Part shown: piece after piece, positions 3,627-34,545 of the stretch | Layout: the number at the start of each line of letters is the position of its first letter | Numbering within the stretch: position 1 is the stretch's first letter | IMG/VR virus record: IMGVR_UViG_3300018026_000026 | Span: 1 to 37,617 of that record | Origin: a virus | Length of the DNA stretch: 37,617 bases | Reading direction: 5' to 3' (one strand) | The notes under the pieces: generated by a model | Seen by the model: the letters and a program-made list of their open reading frames with translations, nothing else | Told to the model about the DNA's origin: nothing | Databases searched by the model: none | Made by a program: the position numbers and the translations under genes

Positions 3627-3746
3627 TTACTGCCAGAGCGTGGGAGTTGTCGTTTCCTTCACTTGCGATGCTGCCGGGTTTCCGGCGGTCTCGCAGCCGC
3701 CAATAAATAGCGCGGCCAAGATTAAAAGAATGATGATTTTTTTCAT
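3627..3746 (-). CDS. Tiny lipoprotein, 39 aa
   Basis: MKK is followed by a 13-residue hydrophobic stretch and the lipobox FIGGC with the lipid-accepting Cys at residue 18, leaving a 21-residue polar mature peptide. An AGGAGG site lies 7 bases upstream, and the ATG overlaps the upstream stop as ATGA. Signal peptidase II lipoproteins of this size in phages are usually outer spanins (Rz1-like) or surface-exclusion/immunity factors. This one is in the early operon, far from the lysis genes, which makes an exclusion role at least as likely. The lipobox is clear; the role is inference. Confidence 0.7.
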   Translation of the reverse strand: MKKIIILLILAALFIGGCETAGNPAASQVKETTTPTLWQ

Positions 3747-8917: not shown

Positions 8918-11900
8918 CTATGGTGTCGGTGTTTTTGTTGCGGTGTTTGTTACTGTGGCCGTCCTGGTGCTGGTCCTGGTAGCCGTTGCCGTTGCAGTGG
9001 CTGTCTTTGTCGCTGTGCCTGTGCTTGTCGTCGTGGCTGTCATGGTAACTGTAGCCGTGGCCGTGACGGTGATCGTCCCCGTTTGCGTTGCCGTTGCGGT
9101 TGCGCTGCAGGCTGGTCCTATCGCGTCAAAAGAAAAAGCCGCGATCTCCTGCTGGGCTGCGCTCTGCCGGTATAACGCGAATCCGTATTTTGTGGCCGCG
9201 GTAAAAGTTTGGTCAATCTCGGTGTCGACCAGTATGCCGTTTACGTAGATTGAAATATAAGGGCCCACGGCTTGCGCTGTGACGGTGTCATAAAGGGCCG
9301 GGGCCCGCGGAATTATTTTCCTTAAAATGTAATTTCCGTTTAATTCGCATTGCACGACGTAGCAGGCCGGGACCGCCTCCACGCTCCAGGTGTCGGCGCC
9401 GTCCTTATATCTAAAAAATAGCCATATGTTACCGTCAGGATGAAAAGCTGTTATTTGCAGCGACGCGGTTCCATTGGCGACCAGGGCGTCAATGTATGCC
9501 TCGCCAAAATTCGGGATCGTTGGGTTGTATGCGTTGCCTGCCACGGTCGCCAGCGTTCCGAAATATTGCGTCCAGATCTGCCCGCTGTCGGCCGTTCCCA
9601 GGGTTGCACCGGTCCTGAAAAAAGTGTCAAAGATAGCAGGCCCGCAGCTGGCAGGAGTGAAGCTCGGGCTTGCTGTGGCCGTGGTTGTGCCGGTGCTGGT
9701 GTAAGTCACCGACGGTGTCAATGTCTGCGACGACGTCCTGGTCAGAGACGACGTCAATGTCTGCGTTATGGTGCCGGTCCTGGTGCTGGTTGCGGATCCG
9801 GTACCGGTCGCCGTGGCCGTCCTGGTCGGGATCTTGGTCTGCGTCCAGGTCGGAGTCCAGGTGTTCGTCCAGGTCCATGTTTGCGTTGCCGTTCCTGTAA
9901 AATCCCTGGTATTGGTAGCCGTGGCCGTCCTGGTCTGCGTTGCGGAGGCCGTGGGCGTTGCGGTCCAGGTCCTCGTCCTGGTGACCGTATAAGTAAAAGT
10001 CACGGATCCGGTTGCCGTTGCGGTTGCTGTCGCGGTCTGCGTCCAGGTCTTTGTCCTGGTAAAAATAGCGGTCCAGGTGTTTGTCAGTATAGGCGTGGCC
10101 GTTAAAGCGGTGTATGTCGGCGTTGCCGTCCTGGTCCTCGTCGGGATCGTGGTCCAGGTGACGCTTGGAATTGCCGTCACGGTTGGCGTCGGTGTTTGGG
10201 TTGCCGTCCTGGTTTGCGTCCTGGTCGCGGATGCTGTGGCGGTCTTGGATCCGGTCACGGTTGCCGTGGCTGTTCCCGTGGCCGTGGCGGTCGGGAGCGC
10301 AGTTCTTGTCCCTGTTGCCGTAACCGTTGCGGTCCTGGTAGATGTACGCGATCCCGTTATAGTAGCGGTTTGGGTTGCCGTGTTCGTTGTCGTGACCGTC
10401 GTCGTGTATCTGGACGTTTTGGTTGACGTAGCCGTCACGGTAGATGTTTTGCTTGTCGTCTGCGTTGCCGTTGCGGTCGCGGTCGCGGTCGCCGTGAACG
10501 TCTCGGTCTGTGTCGCCGTTACGGTAGACGACGGGCTCAAAGTCGGCGTGACCGTTGGCGTAAAAGTTGATGTTGGGAGCGGCGTGCTGGTAGGGTAGCA
10601 GCCCGGGCCAAAAGCATTAAAGTTAAAACTTTTGATCGTTGTCGACGTCCCTACGCCAATATTGTTAATTAAGAATCCCATCTGTGTATTGTTTGACGTC
10701 CAATTGTCGGTTTCATTGTCGACCGGCGCGCCATTAATAAAAAAGTTTACAGACGTTCCAATAAACCAGGCCTGAATCAAATCGTTAGTGGCGCCCACGT
10801 TGCTTATATAATGGTTAATCTCCACGGTGCCGTTATAAATGCAGTAAATATGATATTGATAACTGTTCGCTGCGTCTGGTCCAAAAAACCAATATGTATT
10901 AAATGTCCCAGGCGCTACCCTGAAAATTATCCCCGTTGTAGCCGTGGTGTCCGCGGTTCCCAGTTGCATGGAAACAAATCCATTGGCGACCAGGCTGTCT
11001 ATGGTCGCGTAATTTAAATATCCCGTATAAGATAAATACGCCTGGTTTCCTGCCGTGATCCCGATCCCTGTGCCTCCGTTCGCGCTCTGGCTCCACGACT
11101 GGCCGGTATTGGGAGGCAGTGGCAGGGCCCAGCCCAGGGTCGAGGCTGGTCCGCGATCAAAATTATCTGCTATGGCTGGGCCACACGCCACGATGGTTGT
11201 CGTCGGCGTCGCCGTATTGGTAGCCGTGGCCGTTTGTGTCGCCGTTGCGGTTGTCGTGGCTGTCACGGACGATGTCAAGGTTTGCGATGACGTCAAAGTT
11301 TGTGTTTCCGTAGCTGTTTGGGTTGCGGTTGCCGTCGGTGTTGCCGTGGCCGTGGCCGTGGCCGTAGCGGTGTTCGTGTAGGTATCCGTCGTGTTTGGGG
11401 TCGCCGTAACGTAATTAAATTTTAGCTCCCAGTCATAGGTCGCGCCAAACACGTCAAAAACCATGGCCGAACAGTTCTCGGTAACGCAGGGATCGGGGAA
11501 TCCAATGATTCCGGAATTGCTATTCAGGAGCTCCTGGGTTTCTGCTGGGTCAAAATTAATGGTGTGTGTTCCGGAAGCAAGAGCGCCGCCAAAAAGAGCG
11601 CTGACACCGGTATAAAAAAAATCCGTGTCAGGAACCCCTCCACCGCCATCCGGGAAAGTCATCCCGCCCAGGGTATAGGTGCCAGAGTTCCCTCCCAGCC
11701 AAGCAGTCGTACTGGCTTGATTTTGGTAATTCCAGGTAGCGTGATCTGAACCCCCGGCGAACCATCCATTGTCGCCGCTTTTAAATCGGTAAAAATAAAC
11801 GGTAGTGTCCGGGTAATATGCATATGTCAAATTGTAGGTCAGAGTCGGCGTGCCGGTGATGACCGCGTTCGCGGGTAAGCCGGAAAAATCCCAATAGAGC

Positions 11901-12085
11901 CAGGTGTAGTTTATTTCGGTGCCGTATATGTAGCCCCTGGAGATGTTCGTATAGGAAGGGTAGACCGTGGTTGGTGCGTAAGGGTCGCACGTCCCAGCCA
12001 CCGAAGGGGTCGCGTCAAAAGTCTGGCTCCAGAGCGCAGCCGGCGCCAGCAGAAAAAATAAAAATAGCGCGATCCATTTTTTCAT
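8918..12085 (-). CDS. Giant exported Thr-x repeat protein with three carbohydrate-binding-like domains, 1055 aa
   Basis: A Sec signal peptide (MKKWIALFLFFLLAPAALWS) starts the protein. Residues about 25-228 look like a DNRLRE/CBM96-type beta-sandwich (TWLYWDFSGLPANAVITGT). Thr-x dipeptide block 1 spans 228-298. LamG/DUF1080-like domain A spans 299-498 (YATIDSLVANGF, then FFINGAPVDNETD, ending FNFNAFGPGC). Block 2 spans 499-812. Homologous domain B spans 813-996 (YIDALVANGTAS, then IYVNGILVDTEID, ending FSFDAIGPAC). A final block runs to the end. In the blocks nearly every second residue is Thr; the partners are Ala, Gln, Arg, Trp, Asn and others. There is no C-terminal anchor. The ATG overlaps the upstream stop as ATGA. 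It could be a secreted adhesin or a Sec-exported fibre; virion proteins normally lack signal peptides. Domain calls are by eye. Confidence 0.75.
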   Translation of the reverse strand: MKKWIALFLFFLLAPAALWSQTFDATPSVAGTCDPYAPTTVYPSYTNISRGYIYGTEINYTWLYWDFSGLPANAVITGTPTLTYNLTYAYYPDTTVYFYRFKSGDNGWFAGGSDHATWNYQNQASTTAWLGGNSGTYTLGGMTFPDGGGGVPDTDFFYTGVSALFGGALASGTHTINFDPAETQELLNSNSGIIGFPDPCVTENCSAMVFDVFGATYDWELKFNYVTATPNTTDTYTNTATATATATATPTATATQTATETQTLTSSQTLTSSVTATTTATATQTATATNTATPTTTIVACGPAIADNFDRGPASTLGWALPLPPNTGQSWSQSANGGTGIGITAGNQAYLSYTGYLNYATIDSLVANGFVSMQLGTADTTATTGIIFRVAPGTFNTYWFFGPDAANSYQYHIYCIYNGTVEINHYISNVGATNDLIQAWFIGTSVNFFINGAPVDNETDNWTSNNTQMGFLINNIGVGTSTTIKSFNFNAFGPGCYPTSTPLPTSTFTPTVTPTLSPSSTVTATQTETFTATATATATATQTTSKTSTVTATSTKTSRYTTTVTTTNTATQTATITGSRTSTRTATVTATGTRTALPTATATGTATATVTGSKTATASATRTQTRTATQTPTPTVTAIPSVTWTTIPTRTRTATPTYTALTATPILTNTWTAIFTRTKTWTQTATATATATGSVTFTYTVTRTRTWTATPTASATQTRTATATNTRDFTGTATQTWTWTNTWTPTWTQTKIPTRTATATGTGSATSTRTGTITQTLTSSLTRTSSQTLTPSVTYTSTGTTTATASPSFTPASCGPAIFDTFFRTGATLGTADSGQIWTQYFGTLATVAGNAYNPTIPNFGEAYIDALVANGTASLQITAFHPDGNIWLFFRYKDGADTWSVEAVPACYVVQCELNGNYILRKIIPRAPALYDTVTAQAVGPYISIYVNGILVDTEIDQTFTAATKYGFALYRQSAAQQEIAAFSFDAIGPACSATATATQTGTITVTATATVTMTATTTSTGTATKTATATATATRTSTRTATVTNTATKTPTP
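11247..11353 (-). repeat. Exact 107-bp direct repeat, copy 1 (in the 1055-aa gene)
   Basis: It is identical base for base to 12383-12489, at an offset of 1136 bases and in the same reading frame. It encodes the end of block 1, including ETQTLTSSQTLTSSVTATTT. Confidence 0.95.
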
Positions 12086-12622: not shown

Positions 12623-13360
12623 TTAATGCGTGTAAAACTCGCCAGTCAAGCCAAACGTTGCCGTGGCTCCATTTAAAACCCTCAAAACTATATTGTCGCC
12701 AAATTTAGGTTTTCCAAGCACCGAGGAATTTGTCGGCACCAAGGGTATAAATCCATTTTTCAAATACAGCCAGCCCGTTAAGGTAGTTCCGGACGGCAAA
12801 GCCTCGAGCCATATAACGCTTGAATCGCTTGAAGAAATATAAGCCCAGTCTAAAAATGTTATCATGCTCGCTGTGCCAGTGACCATAATAGCGTAATCCC
12901 TAAAAGTTCCGGATTGGGTAAAATAAACCGGCTTATGTTTCCCGCCGGTGTTATCTTCAATCAATCCCTTTACGGTTATATTTGCGATCACAAGCGTAGA
13001 CACAAGCGTCGGCCCTGTCGTCGGCGTATTTGAAAAAGTAAAAGTAGCGGTGACCGTCGACGTTACCGTAGTGGTCCGCGTATTCGTACCCGTGACCGTG
13101 GCCGTTTGTGTTGCCGTGGTCGTGGACGTACTTGTCTTTGTTAGCGTTTGAGTTCTCGTTGCTGTTGCCGTTGCTGTAGCCGTAGCACTATGGATCCACC
13201 ATCCCGGCGTCCCGGTAGCCGTTGATGTATATGTATTTGACGGCACGGTAGCCGTGGCCGTGGTTGTAGCCGTGGCGATAGCCGTAAAAGTGCTGGTGTT
13301 CGCCCAGGCTGAACTAGTTGCCAGCGCTAAAAGCAGCACCAGCAGAAAATATTTTTTCAT
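12623..13360 (-). CDS. Exported Thr-x repeat protein with C-terminal structural domain, 245 aa
   Basis: The ATG at 13360 follows GAGGAGG and starts a clear signal peptide (MKKYFLLVLLLALATSSAWA, cleavage likely after Ala-Trp-Ala). The longer frame upstream has no ribosome site. Residues about 22-135 are a Thr-x array interrupted by TPGWWIHS. A beta-rich C-terminal domain follows (VKGLIEDNTGGKHKPVYFTQ, later GWLYLKNGFIPLVP and LTGEFYTH). It is the first of three adjacent repeat proteins of the same plan: signal peptide, Thr-x stalk, different end domain. Role unknown; surface display or secretion is the straightforward reading of the signal peptide. Confidence 0.7.
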   Translation of the reverse strand: MKKYFLLVLLLALATSSAWANTSTFTAIATATTTATATVPSNTYTSTATGTPGWWIHSATATATATATRTQTLTKTSTSTTTATQTATVTGTNTRTTTVTSTVTATFTFSNTPTTGPTLVSTLVIANITVKGLIEDNTGGKHKPVYFTQSGTFRDYAIMVTGTASMITFLDWAYISSSDSSVIWLEALPSGTTLTGWLYLKNGFIPLVPTNSSVLGKPKFGDNIVLRVLNGATATFGLTGEFYTH

Positions 13361-13376
13361 CTGTTTTCCTCCTCTT

Positions 13377-13709
13377 TTATTTTGTAGCTGGCGCGATCGG
13401 AGGCGCATATCCTGGCCTCGGTCCCGCTGCTGCTAGTGCCGAAGGAGATCCCGGCGCCGGCGTGGCGTCTGTTCCCCATGGGCTCTGGTGTTTTAATTCC
13501 TGGTACACGACTGTTGCGACGGTAGTGGCGACCGCTTGTTTCCAATCTCCGCCGGCGGCCGCGTTCATCCCGATTCCATATGCCGCGGCAGCGATCCAAG
13601 CGACCGCTGGTTTTAATGCGTCTGGAACGTGGTTTATTACGGCGTGCTCCAGCATGGGCTCAATACCGATCCCGCCCGCTCCTATAATTCCCGCTTGTGT
13701 TAAATCCAT
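13377..13709 (-). CDS. Hypothetical hydrophobic protein, 110 aa
   Basis: The N-terminal half is Gly/Ala/Ile-rich with two moderately hydrophobic stretches (QAGIIGAGGIGIEPM and AVAWIAAAAYGIGMNAAAGG). Then comes ATTVATVVYQELKH and a Pro/Ala-rich tail. It resembles small phage holin-adjacent or tail-region proteins of unknown function and might be membrane-active, but Gly/Asp interruptions make a true transmembrane call uncertain. A GGAGG-type site precedes the ATG at 13709. It lies between a probable membrane protein and the exported repeat proteins. Confidence 0.6.
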   Translation of the reverse strand: MDLTQAGIIGAGGIGIEPMLEHAVINHVPDALKPAVAWIAAAAYGIGMNAAAGGDWKQAVATTVATVVYQELKHQSPWGTDATPAPGSPSALAAAGPRPGYAPPIAPATK

Positions 13710-24659: not shown

Positions 24660-26000
24660 TTAGCTCTGTGCTACCGTTGCGCTGCCGTCATTGCCAAGGT
24701 AAGCAAAGCGCGGGTCGATCCACTCAACCTCCCAGCGGCTGCGCGACCTGAATTGCGTCAGGTCATTTTCAAAGCTCTTGCCGCTCAAGGGGTTTTCCTG
24801 GACGATCTGCATCGGCGTCCTGCGCTGGAAAACGATTCCTTTTTTGCCCTGTATTAATGCCCAGGCTCCGTTATTGAAAAAGGCATTTCCAACGGGCAGT
24901 AGCCGGCGGATCCACTGGCTGTTCTTTGAAAATACGCCCTGCGCGAGCCCGGTCGTGCTGCTCGGTGTCGCGGGATAGTATTCGCTATGAACAAAAGTGT
25001 CGGCGTTGACATAATCAAAAGTCGACACGACCAGGGTGTCCGGGACCACGGCCATCTTGACGCCATTTAGCCCGGTTGCGTTGGCCAGCTTTTGGATGCC
25101 CGTTTTTAATGCGGGCAGGGTCAGCTGGACAAATCCGCTGCCGTTTAGCGTGCTGCCGGTGCTCAATACAGCGCCATCGGGCACGTTGCCGTGATGGGTG
25201 TAATCGTCGCCGTACAGGTCATCGCTAAAAGGAACGGTGATCAGCGTGCCGCTGCTGTTATAGCCCTGCCAGATCGAGGCCGGTATGGAGACGCCGGCGA
25301 TCGTATTGGCAAAACCCATAAAGCGCGCGGCCACATAAACTTCCTCGAGCGTGGCTTGCGCCTCGCCCAGGGCCTGGCTGCGGTTCTGGATCTGGTTTGA
25401 TTGGTCATCCTCGACCAGCTCTTGCTCAAAAGACTCGCCGCCCATATATTTAAAGTTTTCTATGGTGACGACTAGCCCTTTGGGATAGCTCTGCGCGTAA
25501 GGTTCACCGGCTCCGGTGCGCTGGGGTAAATTAGCGCGGTGCAACGGAGGATAAATTTCAAACGGCCGGGTGCTGGAGACCTCTTTAATATATTGGGTCC
25601 ATTCACGCGGCGCGTTCTCATACCACATGTTAGCGTCTTGCTGAACGCCGGCACGGGTCAGAGCGGCAAAAGCAGAGGCTGGGCTGGCTTCCCCTACCTC
25701 ACGGTAATGGTCGCAGCACCAGGACTCCAGCGCCTGCAGTGTAAAGTCCGGGGCTTCCCAGTCAATAATATTCTCGACCGCGTTTATGACACCATCTGTG
25801 ATGTAAGTGCGGACCTCTTTGGATTCGTGCAGGTCGCGCAAGGTCGCCACGCGTTTAACGGGCCTGCCCATGCGTTGCGGCTGCTGCCCCATCTGCGCGG
25901 CAAAGACGGCGGTTAGGTTATTAAAAAACGCGTCCTTTGCCTCTGCAATTGCCCTGGGATCTTGCTGCAGCCTTAAATTAATATCGGTTCTTTTTTCCAT
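24660..26000 (-). CDS. Major capsid protein, HK97-fold, 446 aa
   Basis: Size, place after a decoration-like gene and protease, and beta-rich core support the call. The N-terminal 105 residues are helical and charged (FFNNLTAVFAAQMGQ, HESKEVRTYITDGVINAVEN), like the delta domain of HK97-type capsids that is removed on maturation. Residues 104-116 are EASPASAFAALTR, matching the protease at 11 of 13 positions. Mature-type features follow: YPKGLVVTIENFKYMGG (E-loop region) and VPDTLVVSTFDYVNADTF, which recalls Mu T-like capsids. It has an AGGAGG ribosome site. A clear Lys/Asn crosslink pair cannot be assigned. Confidence 0.85.
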   Translation of the reverse strand: MEKRTDINLRLQQDPRAIAEAKDAFFNNLTAVFAAQMGQQPQRMGRPVKRVATLRDLHESKEVRTYITDGVINAVENIIDWEAPDFTLQALESWCCDHYREVGEASPASAFAALTRAGVQQDANMWYENAPREWTQYIKEVSSTRPFEIYPPLHRANLPQRTGAGEPYAQSYPKGLVVTIENFKYMGGESFEQELVEDDQSNQIQNRSQALGEAQATLEEVYVAARFMGFANTIAGVSIPASIWQGYNSSGTLITVPFSDDLYGDDYTHHGNVPDGAVLSTGSTLNGSGFVQLTLPALKTGIQKLANATGLNGVKMAVVPDTLVVSTFDYVNADTFVHSEYYPATPSSTTGLAQGVFSKNSQWIRRLLPVGNAFFNNGAWALIQGKKGIVFQRRTPMQIVQENPLSGKSFENDLTQFRSRSRWEVEWIDPRFAYLGNDGSATVAQS

Positions 26001-26019
26001 GACTCTCTTTTCCTCCTCT

Positions 26020-26529
26020 CTACTTGGCTAGAAAAGGACTCGGGAAGTTGCTCCGAATCCTGATCGGGATTTTCGTGGTGCCGTCTCCGATAAAAGTTCC
26101 GCCGCCAGGGATCCAGGCGTATCCGATTGTCGTCGGTGCGGCCAGTGTATCAGCGCCGCCGTTAAGCGTAACGCTGGAGGCGTTGTTAATTGCCAGGGGC
26201 GAGCCATCTTCGACGGTGTCGCTTGCTTTTAAAGCAATCCCTGGGTAAAAAACGCCCGTTTGCTGGATCAACATCAAGGGCTCGGGTACGCTAGGTATTC
26301 CAGCGCCCGACGGGAACGGGTTGCTTTGTGGAGGCTGCTGCCCGGCGTAAAATCCGCCAAAATAAGCGGGACCCGTCACGTTCGAGTAAATGTCCCAATA
26401 GTGACCGCTGGTGTTATACATGGCAAAGTCGCCCGGGACGATCGTTAGCGTGCTTAAGGGCTGCACGGCCCGGGGATCTGCGTCCTTGGCGTAACCAAGG
26501 TTTGGTACGGTGCTGTTCGTTGTTCCCAT
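26020..26529 (-). CDS. Head decoration / head fibre-like protein, 169 aa
   Basis: A beta-rich, Gly/Pro-rich protein lies between the protease and the capsid gene, the usual slot of decoration proteins. Its sequence has GDFAMYNTSGHYWDIY, then TGVFYPGIALKASDTVEDG and GYAWIPGGGTFI. The last parts resemble the small barrel that binds HK97-type capsids. No signal peptide. It starts after GGAG-type sites upstream of 26529. Position is the main evidence. Confidence 0.65.
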   Translation of the reverse strand: MGTTNSTVPNLGYAKDADPRAVQPLSTLTIVPGDFAMYNTSGHYWDIYSNVTGPAYFGGFYAGQQPPQSNPFPSGAGIPSVPEPLMLIQQTGVFYPGIALKASDTVEDGSPLAINNASSVTLNGGADTLAAPTTIGYAWIPGGGTFIGDGTTKIPIRIRSNFPSPFLAK

Positions 26530-26556
26530 GTTCGTTTATCTCCTCTCTTTAGTATT

Positions 26557-27357
26557 TTAAGATTTTTTGACCGGCACGCCGGCGTTTTTAAAGCTGCTGA
26601 AAAGGTTGCCCTGGGATTCTTGCGTTTCGCTACCGCTTGCCTGATCTTTTTCCTCGGTAATCGCAAACGCGTAACTGGTGCCGCCTTCCATGGCCGCCTT
26701 GGTCCTGGCGATCGTGCGTTTCCACGCATTCTCGTCGGTGCCATCTTTGACCAGGTCCTCGGGCGTTAAAAATGCCGCAGGGATTCCGGCTTCCGTGATC
26801 AGTCGCAGCGCTTTGGTTTTCATCTTGACGATTCTTTCCTCGCGTTCCTTGTCTTTCTTGAACGCCCGCAGCTCCGCCAGCTCGCGGGATTCTTTTGATT
26901 CCTTGCCGTGTATATGAATATGGGTCGCGCCGGCTGCAGGAGCTCCGTCGCCATCCCCGTCTCCATCTTCTGGATCCTCGCCGTCCTCGGGCTGGGACGC
27001 TGTTGGCATCGCTGGTGTTGCCTCGCCCTCGGGGCAGGGTTCGCCGGCCTTGGACGCCTTGACCGCTTTAATAGCTTTAGCCAAACGCGCCTTGTAAGCC
27101 TCGTCCTCCTCGTCCTCATGCTGCGGGATCAGGGCTTTAATTGCCTCCATGCCTTCGGCCTCCATATCAAGGCCATCTTTGGAGTCCTTGTCCTCGCCTT
27201 CGTTCTTGTTCTCGCGAACGTGCAGCTGCAATTTAGCCTCGAGCGCTTTGATTGTTGCCCGCAGCTTTTTAATTATGCCGCCGTCTTTGGTCGTCTTAAG
27301 CTGCGCCTCTGCGGCGTTAAGCTGCGTTACGACTTTTTTCAGTTCGGTTGCTTTCAT
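26557..27357 (-). CDS. Probable nested scaffold protein (in-frame internal start), 266 aa
   Basis: Codon 315 of the protease gene is an ATG preceded by GAGGAGG with an 11-base gap. The frame from there is acidic, Lys/Ala/Gln-rich coiled coil (ATELKKVVTQLNAAEAQLKT) with strongly acidic stretches (GEDPEDGDGDGDG) and a HIHIHG turn. It ends in a charged C-terminus likely to contact the capsid protein. This is the plan of scaffold proteins, and nested scaffolds are known in lambda (C/Nu3) and Mu (I/Z). GAG GAG codons alone could explain the SD-like sequence. Confidence 0.55.
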   Translation of the reverse strand: MKATELKKVVTQLNAAEAQLKTTKDGGIIKKLRATIKALEAKLQLHVRENKNEGEDKDSKDGLDMEAEGMEAIKALIPQHEDEEDEAYKARLAKAIKAVKASKAGEPCPEGEATPAMPTASQPEDGEDPEDGDGDGDGAPAAGATHIHIHGKESKESRELAELRAFKKDKEREERIVKMKTKALRLITEAGIPAAFLTPEDLVKDGTDENAWKRTIARTKAAMEGGTSYAFAITEEKDQASGSETQESQGNLFSSFKNAGVPVKKS

Positions 27358-28299
27358 GATTACGCGTACCTCCTCTTTTGTTATTTTTCCGTCCGGCCAG
27401 GCTCTGCCCTCCGTGACGGCTTGCTCTATCGCCAAAAACTCACCACCGCGCGCCGGCTGGGTCACAATGTCGGCGCCCAGGCCGTCGGCGAACTCCACGC
27501 AGTAGTGCCAATCTTCAAAACCCGGAACGACTTTGGTTTCGTCCTCCAGCGTTTGCCCCTTGATGCTGATCCCCGCGTAGACCTCCGCGCTCGCCGGGAA
27601 AGATTTTCTAAAAAGCATTTGCGCCTGGACCTTGGCCAGTGCCTCCGAGCCCGCGTCCGATTGGTCCAGGACAAGGGTCGCCTCGCAGGCTTTGCCTTTA
27701 CGTCCCAGGTCCTTAATAAAATAATTTTCTAGCACGGTGCCGTCTTTCCAGAACCCGGACAGGTCCCGGATGTCGCCGACGGGCCGCAGCTGCGCCGATA
27801 ACTTATCAATATGATTAATAAAACATTTACCCTCGTTTATTTTGCGGGCCGCGTCCTCGATAGCCTCCGGGCCGTAATAATTTTTTGTTACCAGGTTGCC
27901 CGGTCCCTCGGTCAGGACTACGCACCGTATCTCGCGCTTCGAGGCATCCATGGTCGCCGCTTCATAAATGGGAACGAAATTTTTATAGGCTTGTTCGGAG
28001 GCGTATGCCTGGGACTGCAGATCCGGCCGCTTAACCTTTGGCCGCGTCAACGCTGCGAACGCGCTCGCGGAGGCGGCTTCTTTAGCTTTTGGCCGCGGCC
28101 GCTTGGCTTTAAAAGCCGTGATCAGCTTTTTAAGATCTGCAGGCTTGCCTGTTTTGTCGACCAGCGCCTCACCGGAAATATTAAAACCCTGGTTTGCCAT
28201 CCATTGCGCCAGGGCATACGGGTTATCAATTTCCGGGTGACTCGCCAGCTTGCCGGCCATTTTCCCGACCTGCGGATCTAGTTTTCTTTCCTTTGCCAT
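26557..28299 (-). CDS. Prohead protease-scaffold fusion, 580 aa
   Basis: The N-terminal 90 residues include a helical pro-part ending EAASASAFAALTR (74-86), then RPKVKRPDLQS. The protease domain spans about 95-290 and carries the probable catalytic His163 (CFINHIDKLSAQLRPVGDI) and Ser245 (VYAGISIKGQT), as in the Mu I/HK97 U35-type families. Residues from 315 form the scaffold. The protease would cut the scaffold and the capsid delta domain during maturation. The gene begins after an intrinsic terminator and GGAGG, so it should be made only if that terminator is passed. Catalytic residues are by eye. Confidence 0.75.
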   Translation of the reverse strand: MAKERKLDPQVGKMAGKLASHPEIDNPYALAQWMANQGFNISGEALVDKTGKPADLKKLITAFKAKRPRPKAKEAASASAFAALTRPKVKRPDLQSQAYASEQAYKNFVPIYEAATMDASKREIRCVVLTEGPGNLVTKNYYGPEAIEDAARKINEGKCFINHIDKLSAQLRPVGDIRDLSGFWKDGTVLENYFIKDLGRKGKACEATLVLDQSDAGSEALAKVQAQMLFRKSFPASAEVYAGISIKGQTLEDETKVVPGFEDWHYCVEFADGLGADIVTQPARGGEFLAIEQAVTEGRAWPDGKITKEEVRVIMKATELKKVVTQLNAAEAQLKTTKDGGIIKKLRATIKALEAKLQLHVRENKNEGEDKDSKDGLDMEAEGMEAIKALIPQHEDEEDEAYKARLAKAIKAVKASKAGEPCPEGEATPAMPTASQPEDGEDPEDGDGDGDGAPAAGATHIHIHGKESKESRELAELRAFKKDKEREERIVKMKTKALRLITEAGIPAAFLTPEDLVKDGTDENAWKRTIARTKAAMEGGTSYAFAITEEKDQASGSETQESQGNLFSSFKNAGVPVKKS

Positions 28300-29556: not shown

Positions 29557-29636
29557 TTTTTAGGCCTCTTTTTCTTTTTTGTCGGCTTCTTAAATAAAAA
29601 ATTAAATAAAAAATATCCCCACCATGGCGTCGCCAT
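29553..29636 (-). CDS. Basic micro-protein, 27 aa
   Basis: An aromatic N-terminus (MATPWWGYFLFNFLF) is followed by a Lys-rich tail (KKPTKKKKRPKK). It shares an A with the upstream stop (TAATG) and its stop overlaps the next ATG (ATGA), with GGAGG upstream. The perfect coupling at both ends argues that it is translated. The hydrophobic head plus basic tail suggests membrane or nucleic acid contact. Confidence 0.55.
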   Translation of the reverse strand: MATPWWGYFLFNFLFKKPTKKKKRPKK

Positions 29637-30625
29637 TACTCCCCACCTCCTCCCTGTTCTAAATACGGCAGCTTGTCCTGGCGCCAATCGTCAAAGTTTT
29701 GGACCGGGGCTATGCGCCACTTGCCTGTGTCCTCGTCCCTGTAGCCGCGGGCGTCGTCTGCCCAATCCTCCGGCATATCAACGCCAAGATCTCGCCAGCT
29801 TTTCAGCTTTGGCGCTTTAGTGCACCTGCAGTTAGGATGTAACGGCGTGTCAATGCTCCCGTCGAACTCGTCGTCCTCTATACCGGCCTGGATCTCCTCG
29901 TCGGTCTTGCCGTCGCGGCCTCCGCAGCTTGGGCACACGCGGTCGTCGCCAGTCGCGACCCACTCGGTCCCGTCCATAAGATCCGCGTTTTGTTCATAGG
30001 TAGCAGACCGGCCCAGGTTCTGCGCTCTCATGATCTCGGTGCGCGCGATCATCTCTGCCCTGTTGGCCCAGGTGCTGCCGTCGCCGATCACGGCATCCAC
30101 GCGATCCGCGGCCTGGCCCATGGTCTCGCCGCTAATCATAGACTGCAGGAGGCCGTCCTTTATGTCCTGGGCCATGCCGTCCGTTATTAATCCTATGCGC
30201 TCGGAAAACATGGCGCCCTGGAAACGTTCATTGACCAGTGCTCGAATCGCGGTGTCGGTCAGGATTGTTACTTTTGGGTTTATGGTGTCCGGGGTTACCT
30301 GGTCCAGCATGTAGCTAGACCACTGCTGGGCCTGTAAATATTGGTCGGCCATCCCGTTCTCCAGCAATAGGTTAGTTTTTTGGTTTAGCTTTCCGATCGT
30401 CTCGTCAATATGGGTTAAAAGCTGGGCGTCAAATTTTTGTGCCTTGACGTCGTCCAGGGTCCAGCTGCCCGCGGCGCCAAAACGCGACACGATCCGTGCC
30501 GCGATCGCGTCCTGGGCGGCTTGGTAGGCGGCCTGCAGCTGGTCCAGGTACTCATCCTCGGATCCGCGGAGCGCTGCCTGGCTCTGGTCCATGATCTTGG
30601 CGATCACCTGCTGCTGGGTGTTCAC
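29636..30625 (-). CDS. Mu F-like head morphogenesis protein, 329 aa
   Basis: The C-terminal half is the classical minor head protein (PF04233) plan: ISGETMGQAADRVDAVIGDG, then IARTEIMRAQNLGRSATYEQ, WVATGDDRVCPSCGGRDG and finally HPNCRCT. The Cys pair and the His-Pro-x-Cys-Arg-Cys block bind zinc. The N-terminal half is helical with Gln/Ala-rich stretches. Such proteins (Mu F, SPP1 gp7) join the portal to DNA or are ejected with it. It follows the portal gene directly, as in those phages. Strong call. Confidence 0.88.
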   Translation of the reverse strand: MNTQQQVIAKIMDQSQAALRGSEDEYLDQLQAAYQAAQDAIAARIVSRFGAAGSWTLDDVKAQKFDAQLLTHIDETIGKLNQKTNLLLENGMADQYLQAQQWSSYMLDQVTPDTINPKVTILTDTAIRALVNERFQGAMFSERIGLITDGMAQDIKDGLLQSMISGETMGQAADRVDAVIGDGSTWANRAEMIARTEIMRAQNLGRSATYEQNADLMDGTEWVATGDDRVCPSCGGRDGKTDEEIQAGIEDDEFDGSIDTPLHPNCRCTKAPKLKSWRDLGVDMPEDWADDARGYRDEDTGKWRIAPVQNFDDWRQDKLPYLEQGGGGE

Positions 30626-30628
30626 GCG

Positions 30629-32785
30629 TTATTTTCTCCGGGCGTCTTTTTTAAAATTAACCTTGTCTGCGCCGCTACCTGGCTTTGGCTTATCATCTTG
30701 GGGCCCAGGTGCCGGAGCTGCCTGGCTGGGCGCCATGGGCCGCGGCCTGGCCGGAGGCGCGCCCGCGTCATACATGGCCTGGACCTTTGGGTCGGTCTGC
30801 TGCTCCATTCTTATTTTTTCCTGCTCGGTGTCAAAATCATAGGTCGTGAAGCTCATCTCTTTACCGGCCGCGTTGCCTGCGGTTTCTTTGCTCCACCAGT
30901 TTTGCGCCTCTCCCAGCGCCAGCATGTTAAGTTTATCCTTGCGGTCCTCGCTCAATATCTCCGGGAAAGTCACCTCGTATGTCATCTCGATCGGCTCCTC
31001 GACGTCGGCCATGGTTAAAAGGCTGGCGGCTTCTTTCATAACGCCTTTAAAGTCGCGCCGGCGCAGTGCCTGCATAATTGATTTCATGCTGGCTTGCCGC
31101 GTCTGCGTTGCCGGGATCAATCCATTTTCGCGCGCGATGTTTATCGCCCAGTCCAGTTCCTTGCGGATCGCGTACTCCATCACGGTCTGTCGCATCTCTA
31201 AACTTTTGTGCGCGGGCTCCGCTTTCATGAGGCCGCTTTGCCGGCCGGAGCCGCCGGTGCCGCTATGAGCGCCCAGCATGTCCGGGCTCAAACCAATGCC
31301 CACGGCGCATTTTGCTTTTAAACTCTCGCCGACCTCGTCGGCTCCGCTGCTGCTGGTCCCCTTGGTCTCCAGGAACGTTGTGTCGACGGCCTCGTTCTCT
31401 ATTAGCTTGCTGCCGGGCACCGGGATCCTGTTGACCTCGGGATCCTCTTTATAGCGATTCACGTCGTCGTCGTCGCCCATTATTTTAGTTTTCATAACAA
31501 ACGACGCCTCGACAAAGGCCCGGAAGGCTTTGCTTTTTTGATAATCCTCCTCCAGCTTAAGCCATGGCAGCACCGGCTCCAGGTCCGCGCGGCCGCGCTT
31601 CTCGCCCTGGACCACGTTCACGCGCGTATGCAAAACCTCATTGGCCGGTATGTCATTGATAACATATTCCGACGCCTTGTCCTTGGGTTTCCAAGTTAGC
31701 TGATATTGTGTTTGCATTTGCTGGTGATAATAAAAAGGGTTATTTATATTTGTTAGCTCGGTTATTATTTCCCAAACGCTCGATGGGTCGATCGGTTGCG
31801 GTGTCGGGAATATTTTCCCGGCGTATTTTTCCGCCAGATCAATAAATTGGCTCACCAGTGGTATAGCCTCCCAGGGCGTTGTTTTTTTCCAGTCCATAAA
31901 CTCGCCGGCCCAAACTGTCGACGCGCAGTTGATCCACCAGTTTGTTTGTCTGTCATTCACGCGTATATAGTCTTGTATGAAATCGTCCAGGTCGTCGTTT
32001 AGCGCCGTGACGCTTACGCCCTTTCCCATAACGTAATTGGTTTTCGTATTGACAAGCGCCTGGGCTATCGCGCTGTGGTTTTTCATATAAAAACACCAGC
32101 CGTGCGCTTTTAAATAGTCGTACATATATTTTTGTTTATTGAAGGGCCCGGGCTGCACCGGTATAAATTCATTGTTTGGCGATCCAAAATATCCGCTGTC
32201 AAAAACATTTTGCAGTCCCTGGGTATCATTGTCATTATCTCCAAACGCCTCCGCGACCGGTGCCGCCTCCAGCATTTTGGAAATTTTCCAGGCTTTTGTT
32301 TTCATAAGGTCCGCGACGGTGTGCCTCTTTTCTTTTTTCCTGGACTTATCCTCCGCGGCGCTGCGCGCGCCCTTGGCGGCCTGGTCTTTCGTCTCCGCGG
32401 CCCTTGTCCAATCCGGATCCGTTATGCGCTCGCGTACTACTTCATAGCCGACGGCCTTCTTTGTGATCGGGTCAATTTTTCTCCGGACGAGGCAAAAAAT
32501 ACCGCTCACTCGCGTTGCCTCTGTCTTTGCCGCTTTGCCTTCGCCCACGGTGACGGTCTGCGGGATCCGGAATCGCTCGTAATATTCTTCGACTGGTACC
32601 ACGGCGTTAAATTGGTAACGCGGCTGCCCGGTGAGCGGATCTTCGCCGCGCAGGCTCTCATAAAATGTTTTAATCGGTCCCTCGGGCGTAAGCATCCTAG
32701 AAAATATTTTTTTAATCTTTGGAGTGGTGTCTGGCGGTTGCAGATCCGGCGGTAGTGGAGCGGGGGTGCTTTTTCTTTTTGCCAT
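30629..32785 (-). CDS. Portal protein, 718 aa
   Basis: ATG 32785 follows AGGAGG; the longer frame would use a TTG. Portal landmarks: YVINDIPANEVLHTRVN, then GRADLEPVLPWLKLEEDYQK, VEASFVMKTKIMGDDDD, and later GIGLSPDMLGAHSGTGGSG and REMS-like helical parts to ARENGLIPAT. It is long for a portal (usually 450-550). An N-terminal extension with a basic, Pro-rich start and a long C-terminal Pro/Asp/Gln-rich tail (PRPMAPSQAAPAPG) account for most of the excess. It follows TerL directly and precedes the Mu F-like gene. Confidence 0.88.
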   Translation of the reverse strand: MAKRKSTPAPLPPDLQPPDTTPKIKKIFSRMLTPEGPIKTFYESLRGEDPLTGQPRYQFNAVVPVEEYYERFRIPQTVTVGEGKAAKTEATRVSGIFCLVRRKIDPITKKAVGYEVVRERITDPDWTRAAETKDQAAKGARSAAEDKSRKKEKRHTVADLMKTKAWKISKMLEAAPVAEAFGDNDNDTQGLQNVFDSGYFGSPNNEFIPVQPGPFNKQKYMYDYLKAHGWCFYMKNHSAIAQALVNTKTNYVMGKGVSVTALNDDLDDFIQDYIRVNDRQTNWWINCASTVWAGEFMDWKKTTPWEAIPLVSQFIDLAEKYAGKIFPTPQPIDPSSVWEIITELTNINNPFYYHQQMQTQYQLTWKPKDKASEYVINDIPANEVLHTRVNVVQGEKRGRADLEPVLPWLKLEEDYQKSKAFRAFVEASFVMKTKIMGDDDDVNRYKEDPEVNRIPVPGSKLIENEAVDTTFLETKGTSSSGADEVGESLKAKCAVGIGLSPDMLGAHSGTGGSGRQSGLMKAEPAHKSLEMRQTVMEYAIRKELDWAINIARENGLIPATQTRQASMKSIMQALRRRDFKGVMKEAASLLTMADVEEPIEMTYEVTFPEILSEDRKDKLNMLALGEAQNWWSKETAGNAAGKEMSFTTYDFDTEQEKIRMEQQTDPKVQAMYDAGAPPARPRPMAPSQAAPAPGPQDDKPKPGSGADKVNFKKDARRK

Positions 32786-32799
32786 AGCTCGGGGCCTCC

Positions 32800-34545
32800 T
32801 CAATTAAAATATGCAGCTCTGCGATTCATTATAGCCGAGACCGGCCTGTTTACAATAGTTTTAGCCAGGGGCTGTCTTGTCGTCGATCGCATCTCGCCGA
32901 CCCAAAATAGGGCCCCGGCCACACCGTGGAAAATATCGTCGCTACTGTTTAATGCCGGCTCGACCTTTTTGCCGTCCAGCAGCTCCAGCTGGCGGCATTC
33001 ATCGGCCAGGGTAACGCCTCCGCCCTCCGCGGTCTCAAAGGTCCGGTCGTAAATGTCAAGCTGCGCCTGGTTTATAAGCGCGACAAAATTGTCAGCGGGC
33101 CCCATGCTGGAAACAATGGACAGCTTTTTCGTCTCTATTTTCTTTGATTTCAGCAGCTGCAGGCTGTCCTCGCTCTGGAAATTGTCATAAGAGACAACGT
33201 GTAGTTTAAATCCCATGCGCCGCAGCTCAAAAACGATCGCGCGGACCTTGGCGTAATCAAGGTGTTTTGTCGGCGTCGGTGCAAATCGCTCGTAATAAGG
33301 CACAATAGCCTTTTTCTGAACCCGGTCCCAGTATGCCAGGCCAAAACCGCAGCCGTGCCGGCTTACGCTTAAGTCAATATGCACGGCATAAAGCGCCCCG
33401 GGTATAGGTTTAAACCATTCGTGAAACGCCAGCGGGTAGCCGTCCTGATCATATTGTTTGACCGGGTGCCGCAGCTTGCTGGCCGCCAGGATCCGCTCCA
33501 GGGGCTCGACGTCCATATAGGGCGTAATTGCGTTGCTCGGCCGGGCCGCCAAGTCGCGCCTGGCTTTATGCTCGTTCGCTTCCCAATCTGCCTTTAATTC
33601 AATGGGCACGCGCATTTTAATAATAGGATCCCAAAAAGTCTTTGTGCCAAACGTGCCTTTTGGCTTTCCTTCCCATAGGGCCCGGCGGACCGCGTAAATC
33701 TTGCTATTGTGCCGCGCCTGCTTTGCCTTACGCTCTATAAAGTCATTAATGAGGCGCGGGCTGCTTATTATGACCATAAGCGGCTTAAGGTATTTCAAAA
33801 GTTTATAAAATGATTTTTTCTTAAGCGCAACAAAGCGGCTCCGGATCCTGCGCTGGCCGGCCGTGTAGATCTCCTCCGCCTGGTCCTTGACGTCTCGGCT
33901 GGTGTTTATGCCTGGCTGCCGCAAATAAGCGGCCTCGTCCATTGTAAAATTAAGGATGTCATAGCCAAGCGGAAAATTAGGCGAGCTGTTACCGGGTAAA
34001 ATATTTATGTCTTTAGGAAAACGCAAACGGCTGGCGATCTTTGGGTCATAGGGGCAATAGCGTTTAAACCACACGCTATTGTCAATTATTCCTTTTATTT
34101 TTCCGAAAACGATGTCTTTGGCCTGGCCGGCGCTTGTTGCCATATTCATAAGCGCGATACCCTGGTCCTTCATAACGCCCAGGCTGCGCTGCGGGTCCTT
34201 TAGCGTCTCCAGGTAGTAAATAAGCATAGCCGTTATGGTCCCGGCCTTTGTGCTTTTGCCGTCGCCGATTCCCTCAATAAAAACGGCTTCCTCAATCTGA
34301 TCGTTATTGAATATTTTAAGGATGTCCTCGCGGTGTGCCGGGTAAAGGCCCTGCTCTGTCTTTGGGTTCCACTTAAGGTTTAAATAGTCCTGGTGATCCA
34401 GCAGCATGTCAGGAGGCGCCGGGATCTCGTCAAATTCTGCCCACTCTGGCAGCGTGGCCGCGGCCAGCCTGCGGATTTCAGGCTCGGAGGCGCTCTCGAA
34501 TCCTTTGCTCAAGTAAAGCTCGAGCTCCTGGGTCGTTAATGACAA
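32800..34545 (-). CDS. terL: Terminase large subunit, 581 aa
   Basis: The ATPase has Walker A at 92-99 (GIGDGKST) and Walker B acids at 203-204 (ILNFTMDEAAYL). The nuclease domain has acidic blocks HIDLSVSRHGCG (about 390), SYDNFQSEDSL and SSDDIFHGVAGAL near the end, the RNase H-like set. It cuts and pumps DNA into the prohead with TerS and the portal. The start is a TTG at 34545, 9 bases after GGAGG and overlapping TerS by 68 bases; no better start exists near. Size is usual. Packaging type cannot be decided from sequence. Confidence 0.93.
   Translation of the reverse strand: MSLTTQELELYLSKGFESASEPEIRRLAAATLPEWAEFDEIPAPPDMLLDHQDYLNLKWNPKTEQGLYPAHREDILKIFNNDQIEEAVFIEGIGDGKSTKAGTITAMLIYYLETLKDPQRSLGVMKDQGIALMNMATSAGQAKDIVFGKIKGIIDNSVWFKRYCPYDPKIASRLRFPKDINILPGNSSPNFPLGYDILNFTMDEAAYLRQPGINTSRDVKDQAEEIYTAGQRRIRSRFVALKKKSFYKLLKYLKPLMVIISSPRLINDFIERKAKQARHNSKIYAVRRALWEGKPKGTFGTKTFWDPIIKMRVPIELKADWEANEHKARRDLAARPSNAITPYMDVEPLERILAASKLRHPVKQYDQDGYPLAFHEWFKPIPGALYAVHIDLSVSRHGCGFGLAYWDRVQKKAIVPYYERFAPTPTKHLDYAKVRAIVFELRRMGFKLHVVSYDNFQSEDSLQLLKSKKIETKKLSIVSSMGPADNFVALINQAQLDIYDRTFETAEGGGVTLADECRQLELLDGKKVEPALNSSDDIFHGVAGALFWVGEMRSTTRQPLAKTIVNRPVSAIMNRRAAYFN

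Follow-up and report, generated by a model that had tools for sequence, protein, structure and literature searches.

Why should a phage head maturation protease carry a copy of a stretch of its own capsid protein? The locus that raises this question lies in the IMG/VR virus record IMGVR_UViG_3300018026_000026, and all 37,617 nucleotides that were analysed are called the window here. The window encodes a predicted head maturation protease and, downstream on the same strand, an HK97-fold major capsid protein. Eleven of 13 residues are common to protease residues 74-86 (EAASASAFAALTR) and capsid residues 104-116 (EASPASAFAALTR), the last nine of them consecutive, and the match stands where a preliminary description of this DNA had claimed it. 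To one possible answer we give an even chance, namely that the protease segment is a mimic of the capsid N-arm that docks the protease module in the prohead. The two genes and the two segments are the following.

24660..26000, minus strand: major capsid protein gene, 446 residues, HK97 fold, Pfam PF25209 (Phage_capsid_4), assigned from Pfam, phrog_371, AlphaFold2 and Foldseek/VIA.
25653..25691, minus strand: capsid segment 104-116, EASPASAFAALTR, where the N-arm helix (107-129) begins, with the family motif EA[DN][SA].[ST].F.Q.LRAG[VI]Q.
26557..28299, minus strand: head maturation protease with an acidic scaffold-like C-terminal part, 580 residues; its relatives match phrog_15531 (head maturation protease) and its domain 107-284 resembles T4 gp21.
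28042..28080, minus strand: protease segment 74-86, EAASASAFAALTR, the putative capsid-arm mimic, in a basic disordered linker.

Within the window the likeness is confined to this segment. The two copies use the same codon at 2 of 13 positions (the E and the first A) and the same nucleotide at 24 of 39. At the composition of the two proteins, 6e-7 segment pairs with at least 11 of 13 matches would be expected, and none of 1500 double shuffles of protease and capsid exceeded 10 of 13. The shared segment, extended to 12 of 18 residues, was the sole significant match when the protease was compared with the capsid by BLASTP. A six-frame search found the segment core nowhere else in the window, and for a third segment copy only a low-complexity Ala-rich stretch turned up. 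Homology between the protease N-domain and the capsid extension was rejected by hhalign (probability about 0), so the part in common is the segment alone.

Relatives were found in IMG/VR by searching for the capsid core, K[FY]x6ExELxxDDQ, as a degenerate DNA pattern, which was drawn from the window sequence plus features of the capsid family and matched 102 stretches. Capsids at these loci gave phmmer E-values down to 2e-85 against the window capsid, and protease homologues lay directly upstream. After iteration with hidden Markov models the sample comprised 103 capsids and about 90 protease open reading frames (ORFs), several of the proteases being shortened by contig ends. A segment resembling the phage's own capsid was present in the protease or in a small upstream ORF in 37 of about 46 testable lineages, a hand count made up of 36 non-redundant pairs plus L135 and restricted to lineages in which no contig end truncates the N-terminus of the protease. 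A capsid profile built from other lineages locates the protease copy, often with scores far above those of shuffled sequence: more than 10 bits were reached by 30 of 90 protease ORFs versus 2 of 4531 other ORFs, one of these two being the split-off protein of L198 described below.

The preliminary description had asked whether the two segments change together in protease and capsid pairs of relatives, and across lineages they do. Over the 36 non-redundant pairs, the protease copy averaged 8.1 identities in 17 with its own capsid versus 6.1 with other capsids, a difference matched in 0 of 20000 permutations. A second comparison took two phages that differ in both capsid and protease copy by the same two residues, and scored whether the protease residues follow their own capsids or oppose them. 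Disjoint nearest sister pairs gave 15 parallel versus 1 opposite differences (p=5e-4), and random pairings of lineages averaged 33.3 to 1.6; since the pairs are related, counts other than those of the sister-pair test are not independent events. Individual lineages illustrate the pattern, with STAQGQLLR in the capsid and STAQGALLR in the protease of L123, FNALLR in both proteins of L138, V in place of R in both copies of L117, EAVAES in both copies of L105 and EAVAETS in both of L147. Covarying positions extend from +1 to +12 after the E. At 401 identical residues in the lineage pairs the codons were the same in 157 cases, versus 157.4 expected from codon usage, which indicates that the likeness is maintained on the proteins and not on the DNA, as had been proposed from the window alone.

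Three placements of the copy were observed. In most lineages it lies in the protease linker. In L198, L166 and L174 it forms the C-terminal end of a stand-alone protein just upstream of the protease (the L198 protein ends ...VEADSGSAFPQLLRGKKK and its capsid has ESDSGSNFPQLLRAG). It can also be N-terminal: in L135 it opens a separate protein (RESQPTSAVAPMVR versus RESQPESAFAFLLR in the capsid), and in L153, L173, L104 and L165 the protease itself begins with it, the start Met standing in place of the E. Such variable placement of a copy that still resembles its own capsid is what a docking peptide would be expected to show.

Near position 3742 (minus strand) of L198, where a 160-residue ORF meets the protease ORF, the sequence GGA AAA AAG AAA TGA contains the classic A-AAA-AAG slippery heptamer in frame, and the -1 frame is that of the protease; a programmed frameshift could thus make a fused form. 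At the corresponding junction of L166 eight consecutive A are found, but in the other frame. In L116 the C-terminal end of an ORF at 2-310, about 8.7 kb upstream of the capsid, reads KETNSMTTLAAMLMKRRR and resembles that phage's own unusual capsid sequence ETNSVTTFGWLLRS; it may be an additional copy, carried by a different head protein.

The window capsid is an HK97-fold major capsid protein of PF25209, scoring 28.4 bits against a gathering cut-off of 27 and also matching phrog_371. Its single-chain AlphaFold2 model (mean predicted local distance difference test score, pLDDT, 85.4) is helical over residues 1-98, continues through a loop holding E104 and enters the HK97 fold with helix 107-129; matches to HK97 capsids and encapsulins reach Foldseek E-values down to 4e-11 and VIA Z scores of 13-16. 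Two further features, with a slash marking the predicted cut, bear on its maturation.

25689..26000, minus strand: capsid residues 1-104, helical N-terminal extension (delta-type propeptide, removal predicted), from the AlphaFold2 helices and its absence from homologues of about 300 residues.
25686..25697, minus strand: capsid V102-G103-E104/A105, predicted site of the maturation cut, matching [hydrophobic]-x-E/[AST], from the invariant E104, the P3 residue and the loop.

E104 is invariant in an alignment of 70 capsids, and capsids of the extended family read [LMFIV]-x-E-[AST] followed by [DN][SA]x[ST]xFxQxLRAG[VI]Q or a variant of it. Homologues of about 300 residues that lack the extension begin right after the point corresponding to E104, and no protease homologue was found in their available flanking DNA; among 63 extended capsids for which 2.5 kb or more of upstream sequence is available, 62 have one. 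Because of this co-occurrence of extension and protease, and because the modelled loop lies between the helical extension and the HK97-fold core, a cut after E104 that removes residues 1-104 is very plausible as a prediction. The helical N-terminal part of about 105 residues that had been described is borne out by modelled helices at 15-37, 54-59, 69-78 and 88-98 followed by the E104 loop, and the capsid copy does sit at a very plausible delta-type cut point. The arrangement resembles the HK97 delta domain, with a helical extension of about 104 residues before an HK97-fold core and a protease gene just upstream. The HK97 protease itself is not known to contain a copy of the region around the capsid cut site.

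The protease has a cleavage-type site of its own, outside the copy.

28102..28299, minus strand: protease residues 1-66, small folded N-domain (AlphaFold2 pLDDT about 90 over 11-60).
27958..27969, minus strand: protease I111-Y112-E113/A114, predicted autocleavage site just before the catalytic domain, a conserved [hydrophobic]-x-E-[AST].
27448..27948, minus strand: gp21-like serine protease domain, residues 118-284, from AlphaFold2, VIA and the nearly invariant H163 and S245.

As modelled, domain 107-284 has a gp21-type catalytic fold: VIA aligned 140 residues with T4 gp21 (5jbl_B) at 3.3 A and a Z of 10.4, well above the next best of 5.6. A Foldseek search with the protease model returned no significant match, and gp21 surfaced only on realignment with VIA. 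H163 and S245, at least 90% conserved among 45 protease relatives, are assigned by analogy as the catalytic His and Ser of a gp21-type protease. E113 is conserved to at least 90% in the same 45 proteins. A separate [hydrophobic]-x-E-[AST] site was found in 29 of 39 protease lineages versus 7.2 ± 2.3 expected, about 18-24 residues ahead of the EGxGN block that opens the catalytic domain. C-terminal [LF]xE[SA] sites show a mild excess only (56 in 2700 versus 281 in 21664 residues). Residues 70-107, which include the copy, are disordered in the single-chain AlphaFold2 model (pLDDT about 40) apart from a short helix at 81-85, with no confident placement on the catalytic domain. Protease and acidic tail are fused in the window and in most relatives, while in L109, L117, L136, L148, L175, L177 and L184 they are separate adjacent or overlapping ORFs.

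T4 gp21 cuts after L/I-x-E, phiKZ gp175 after S/A-x-E and SPN3US gp245 after A-x-E (PMC9026906; PMC10052503). The window system is like that of gp21 in its predicted catalytic fold, in the hydrophobic-x-E/A or S consensus found in the capsid and beside the protease domain, and in the predicted N-terminal capsid propeptide. It differs from all three in that their cleavage sites span only 3-4 residues, and we found no report for them of a protease stretch of 12-17 residues that copies and tracks the capsid. With cuts expected after E104 and E113 under gp21-type specificity, the protease copy at 74-86 is left as something else.

The preliminary description had preferred a shared maturation cleavage site, at which the protease cuts itself and the capsid at the E/A of the common segment. 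The E-A pair is indeed invariant in the capsid, and P1 is E in 27 of the 36 protease copies, with Q in seven others and the start Met in the last two, so that E or Q is kept in 34. Moreover, proteases of the gp21 type cleave after E, and autocleavage has been either proposed or demonstrated for them (PMC9026906; PMC10052503). The protease N-terminus is MAN or MAI in three phages, exactly at the E/AN of the capsid. However, a hydrophobic P3 is present in 35 of 36 capsids versus 5 of 36 protease copies, and the protease possesses a distinct conserved site before its catalytic domain. The copy also persists at the C-termini of stand-alone proteins and at protease N-termini, where a cut has no obvious use, and covariation as far as +12 would not be needed. 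The capsid half of the proposal (E104/A105) is thus retained, but the protease half gives way to the better site at E113/A114, and as a whole we consider it rather unlikely, although a degree of cutting at E74/A75 may occur.

A known system with a shared site is herpesvirus assemblin, whose fold is distantly similar to that of the window protease (VIA Z about 4-5.6). Assemblin has a release (R) site and a maturation (M) site, and a single recognition consensus serves protease and scaffold. In assemblin each of the two copies is cut, whereas here the protease copy is without the upstream half of the recognition sequence; judged from the aligned copies, the protease and capsid segments do not share the same scissile-site determinants.

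The main rival, since E or Q and the following A are kept while P3 is lost, is a pseudosubstrate: an uncut copy lying in the protease's own substrate groove would keep the enzyme from acting, either in cis or, when carried by a separate small protein, in trans, until it is displaced by competing capsid N-arms in the finished prohead. A kept P1' side together with Q or Met at P1 in 9 of 36 copies is the usual form of a pseudosubstrate, and the copy is linked to the protease or encoded directly beside it. Against this, AlphaFold2 does not put the segment in the active site (a weak test), and the covariation runs to +12, into a part that is helical in the capsid model and further than a protease groove normally reads. 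We regard a pseudosubstrate as unlikely. Coincidence, or a duplication at the DNA level such as gene conversion between neighbouring genes, has next to no probability: Ala-rich segments do match by chance above average, but the expectation of 6e-7, the parallel changes in dozens of lineages and the lack of such likeness in control ORFs (4 of 225 reach a score of 25) refute both together, and the codon identity given above rules out gene conversion.

Docking of the protease by a copied N-arm is favoured for several reasons. The copy recurs and changes in parallel within own-capsid pairs, and its covariation to +12 goes beyond the few residues that a protease normally reads. The P3 and partly the P1 determinants are lost from it, while a separate [hydrophobic]-x-E-[AST] site is kept beside the catalytic domain. 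AlphaFold2 leaves the mimic disordered and not confidently placed on the catalytic domain, and the capsid segment starts helix 107-129. In the VIA alignment this helix corresponds to encapsulin residues from 7 on, and the equivalent encapsulin helix contributes to the cargo-peptide groove (PMC12140327). A docking motif had been named in the preliminary description as the alternative to shared cleavage and is the better fit of the two, although the binding itself we infer.

Under the docking reading, the mimic would be a short linear element on the inner face of the prohead, taking the place of a capsid N-arm (residues 105-120). By binding where a capsid N-arm, its own or a neighbour's, packs, it would recruit the protease-scaffold, and the docked module (N-domain, linker, gp21-like domain and acidic scaffold tail) would be built into the shell that it later processes. 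Once the prohead is complete, the protease would cut the capsid after E104, removing the extension, and itself after E113, separating the docking part from the catalytic domain.

Four observations weigh against the docking reading. The E or Q-A pair is kept in most protease copies, as would equally be expected of a pseudosubstrate or of a site that is cut slowly. Where the capsid arm has a bulky F, the mimic mostly has another residue (N, Q, M or H), so that the arm is not copied in full. With capsid-core distance controlled for, a partial Mantel test gives no more than a suggestive result (r=0.17, 132 of 2000). Finally, relatives with only one of the two segments, named beforehand as evidence against the original proposal, do occur: in about 7-9 lineages the protease is complete and yet no copy is seen, which makes the copy common and not universal.

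Prohead protease entry, and quiescence until the head is finished, have been described as a major gap even for T4 gp21 (PMC9026906); internal proteins of T4 and P1 use targeting peptides, and a targeting role has been suggested for the gp21 propeptides (PMC9026906; PMC9024508). The mimic resembles the capsid targeting sequences of T4 internal proteins and P1 DarB in being a short sequence on an internal head protein, which would be expected to carry that protein into the prohead and to be separated from it by cleavage at x-x-E. Those sequences are N-terminal and bind the T4 core, whereas the predicted element here copies the capsid arm and is mostly internal, sometimes C-terminal and in a few lineages N-terminal. 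Encapsulin cargo peptides, which bind between the N-terminal helix and the P-domain (PMC12140327), are likewise short, linear and often C-terminal, and their presumed role is to retain an enzyme within a shell of HK97 fold. The N-terminal helix lining the peptide groove of encapsulins is the one with which the copied capsid helix aligns. No encapsulin peptide is known to copy the sequence of its shell protein, and no report of such a capsid-arm mimic was found in the open-access literature.

More broadly, and with slightly more doubt than confidence, we suggest a general docking code in this branch of HK97-fold viruses, in which the protease is recruited or timed through a copy of the N-arm that serves as a private, co-evolving key of each lineage, carried on the protease or on a separate adaptor. 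If true, the co-evolving mimic would be a directly testable answer on protease recruitment for a large group of uncultured phages. Proteases and capsids from metagenomes could then be paired by a sequence rule, proteins could be loaded into HK97-fold shells by means of a short tag, and phage head assembly would be linked with encapsulin cargo loading.

All relatives with an extended capsid are uncultured phages. Cultured phages yielded only Mu-like gpT or Mushu-type capsids without the extension, aligning from just after the segment. Scans of IMG/VR with single proteins returned only a contig with identical genes, and at the 78 distant loci reached through the terminase no capsid or protease of the window type could be recognised; a scan of GTDB genomes for the capsid core gave 8 stretches, none with a window-type capsid. 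The motif A-[S..]-A-F-A-A-L-T-R, scanned against viral contigs, gave seven unrelated chance matches besides the window phage, so the exact heptamer is not a widespread element.

Between protease and capsid lies one further gene.

26020..26529, minus strand: ORF of 169 residues, probably a decoration protein, judged solely from its position, which corresponds to the annotated gene order of Gordonia phage Orchid.

Searches of Pfam and PHROG gave no family match for this ORF. Orchid shares the portal-protease-decoration-capsid order of the window, and BLASTP shows no relation between the capsids or the proteases. The window terminase (region 30629-34545) is about 25-28% identical to terminases of Gordonia (Orchid, Jumbo), Vibrio and Streptomyces phages. 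In L004 and L005, compared with the window terminase (32800-34545) and Mu F-like gene (29636-30625), the Mu F-like protein is 100% identical and the terminase of L004 only 87%; L004 reflects mosaic exchange within the head module of close relatives. Large ORFs at 8918-12085 and 12623-13408 (minus strand) contain threonine-rich alternating repeats, for example TATATATATRTQTLTKTST, and are probably tail-fibre-like low-complexity regions.

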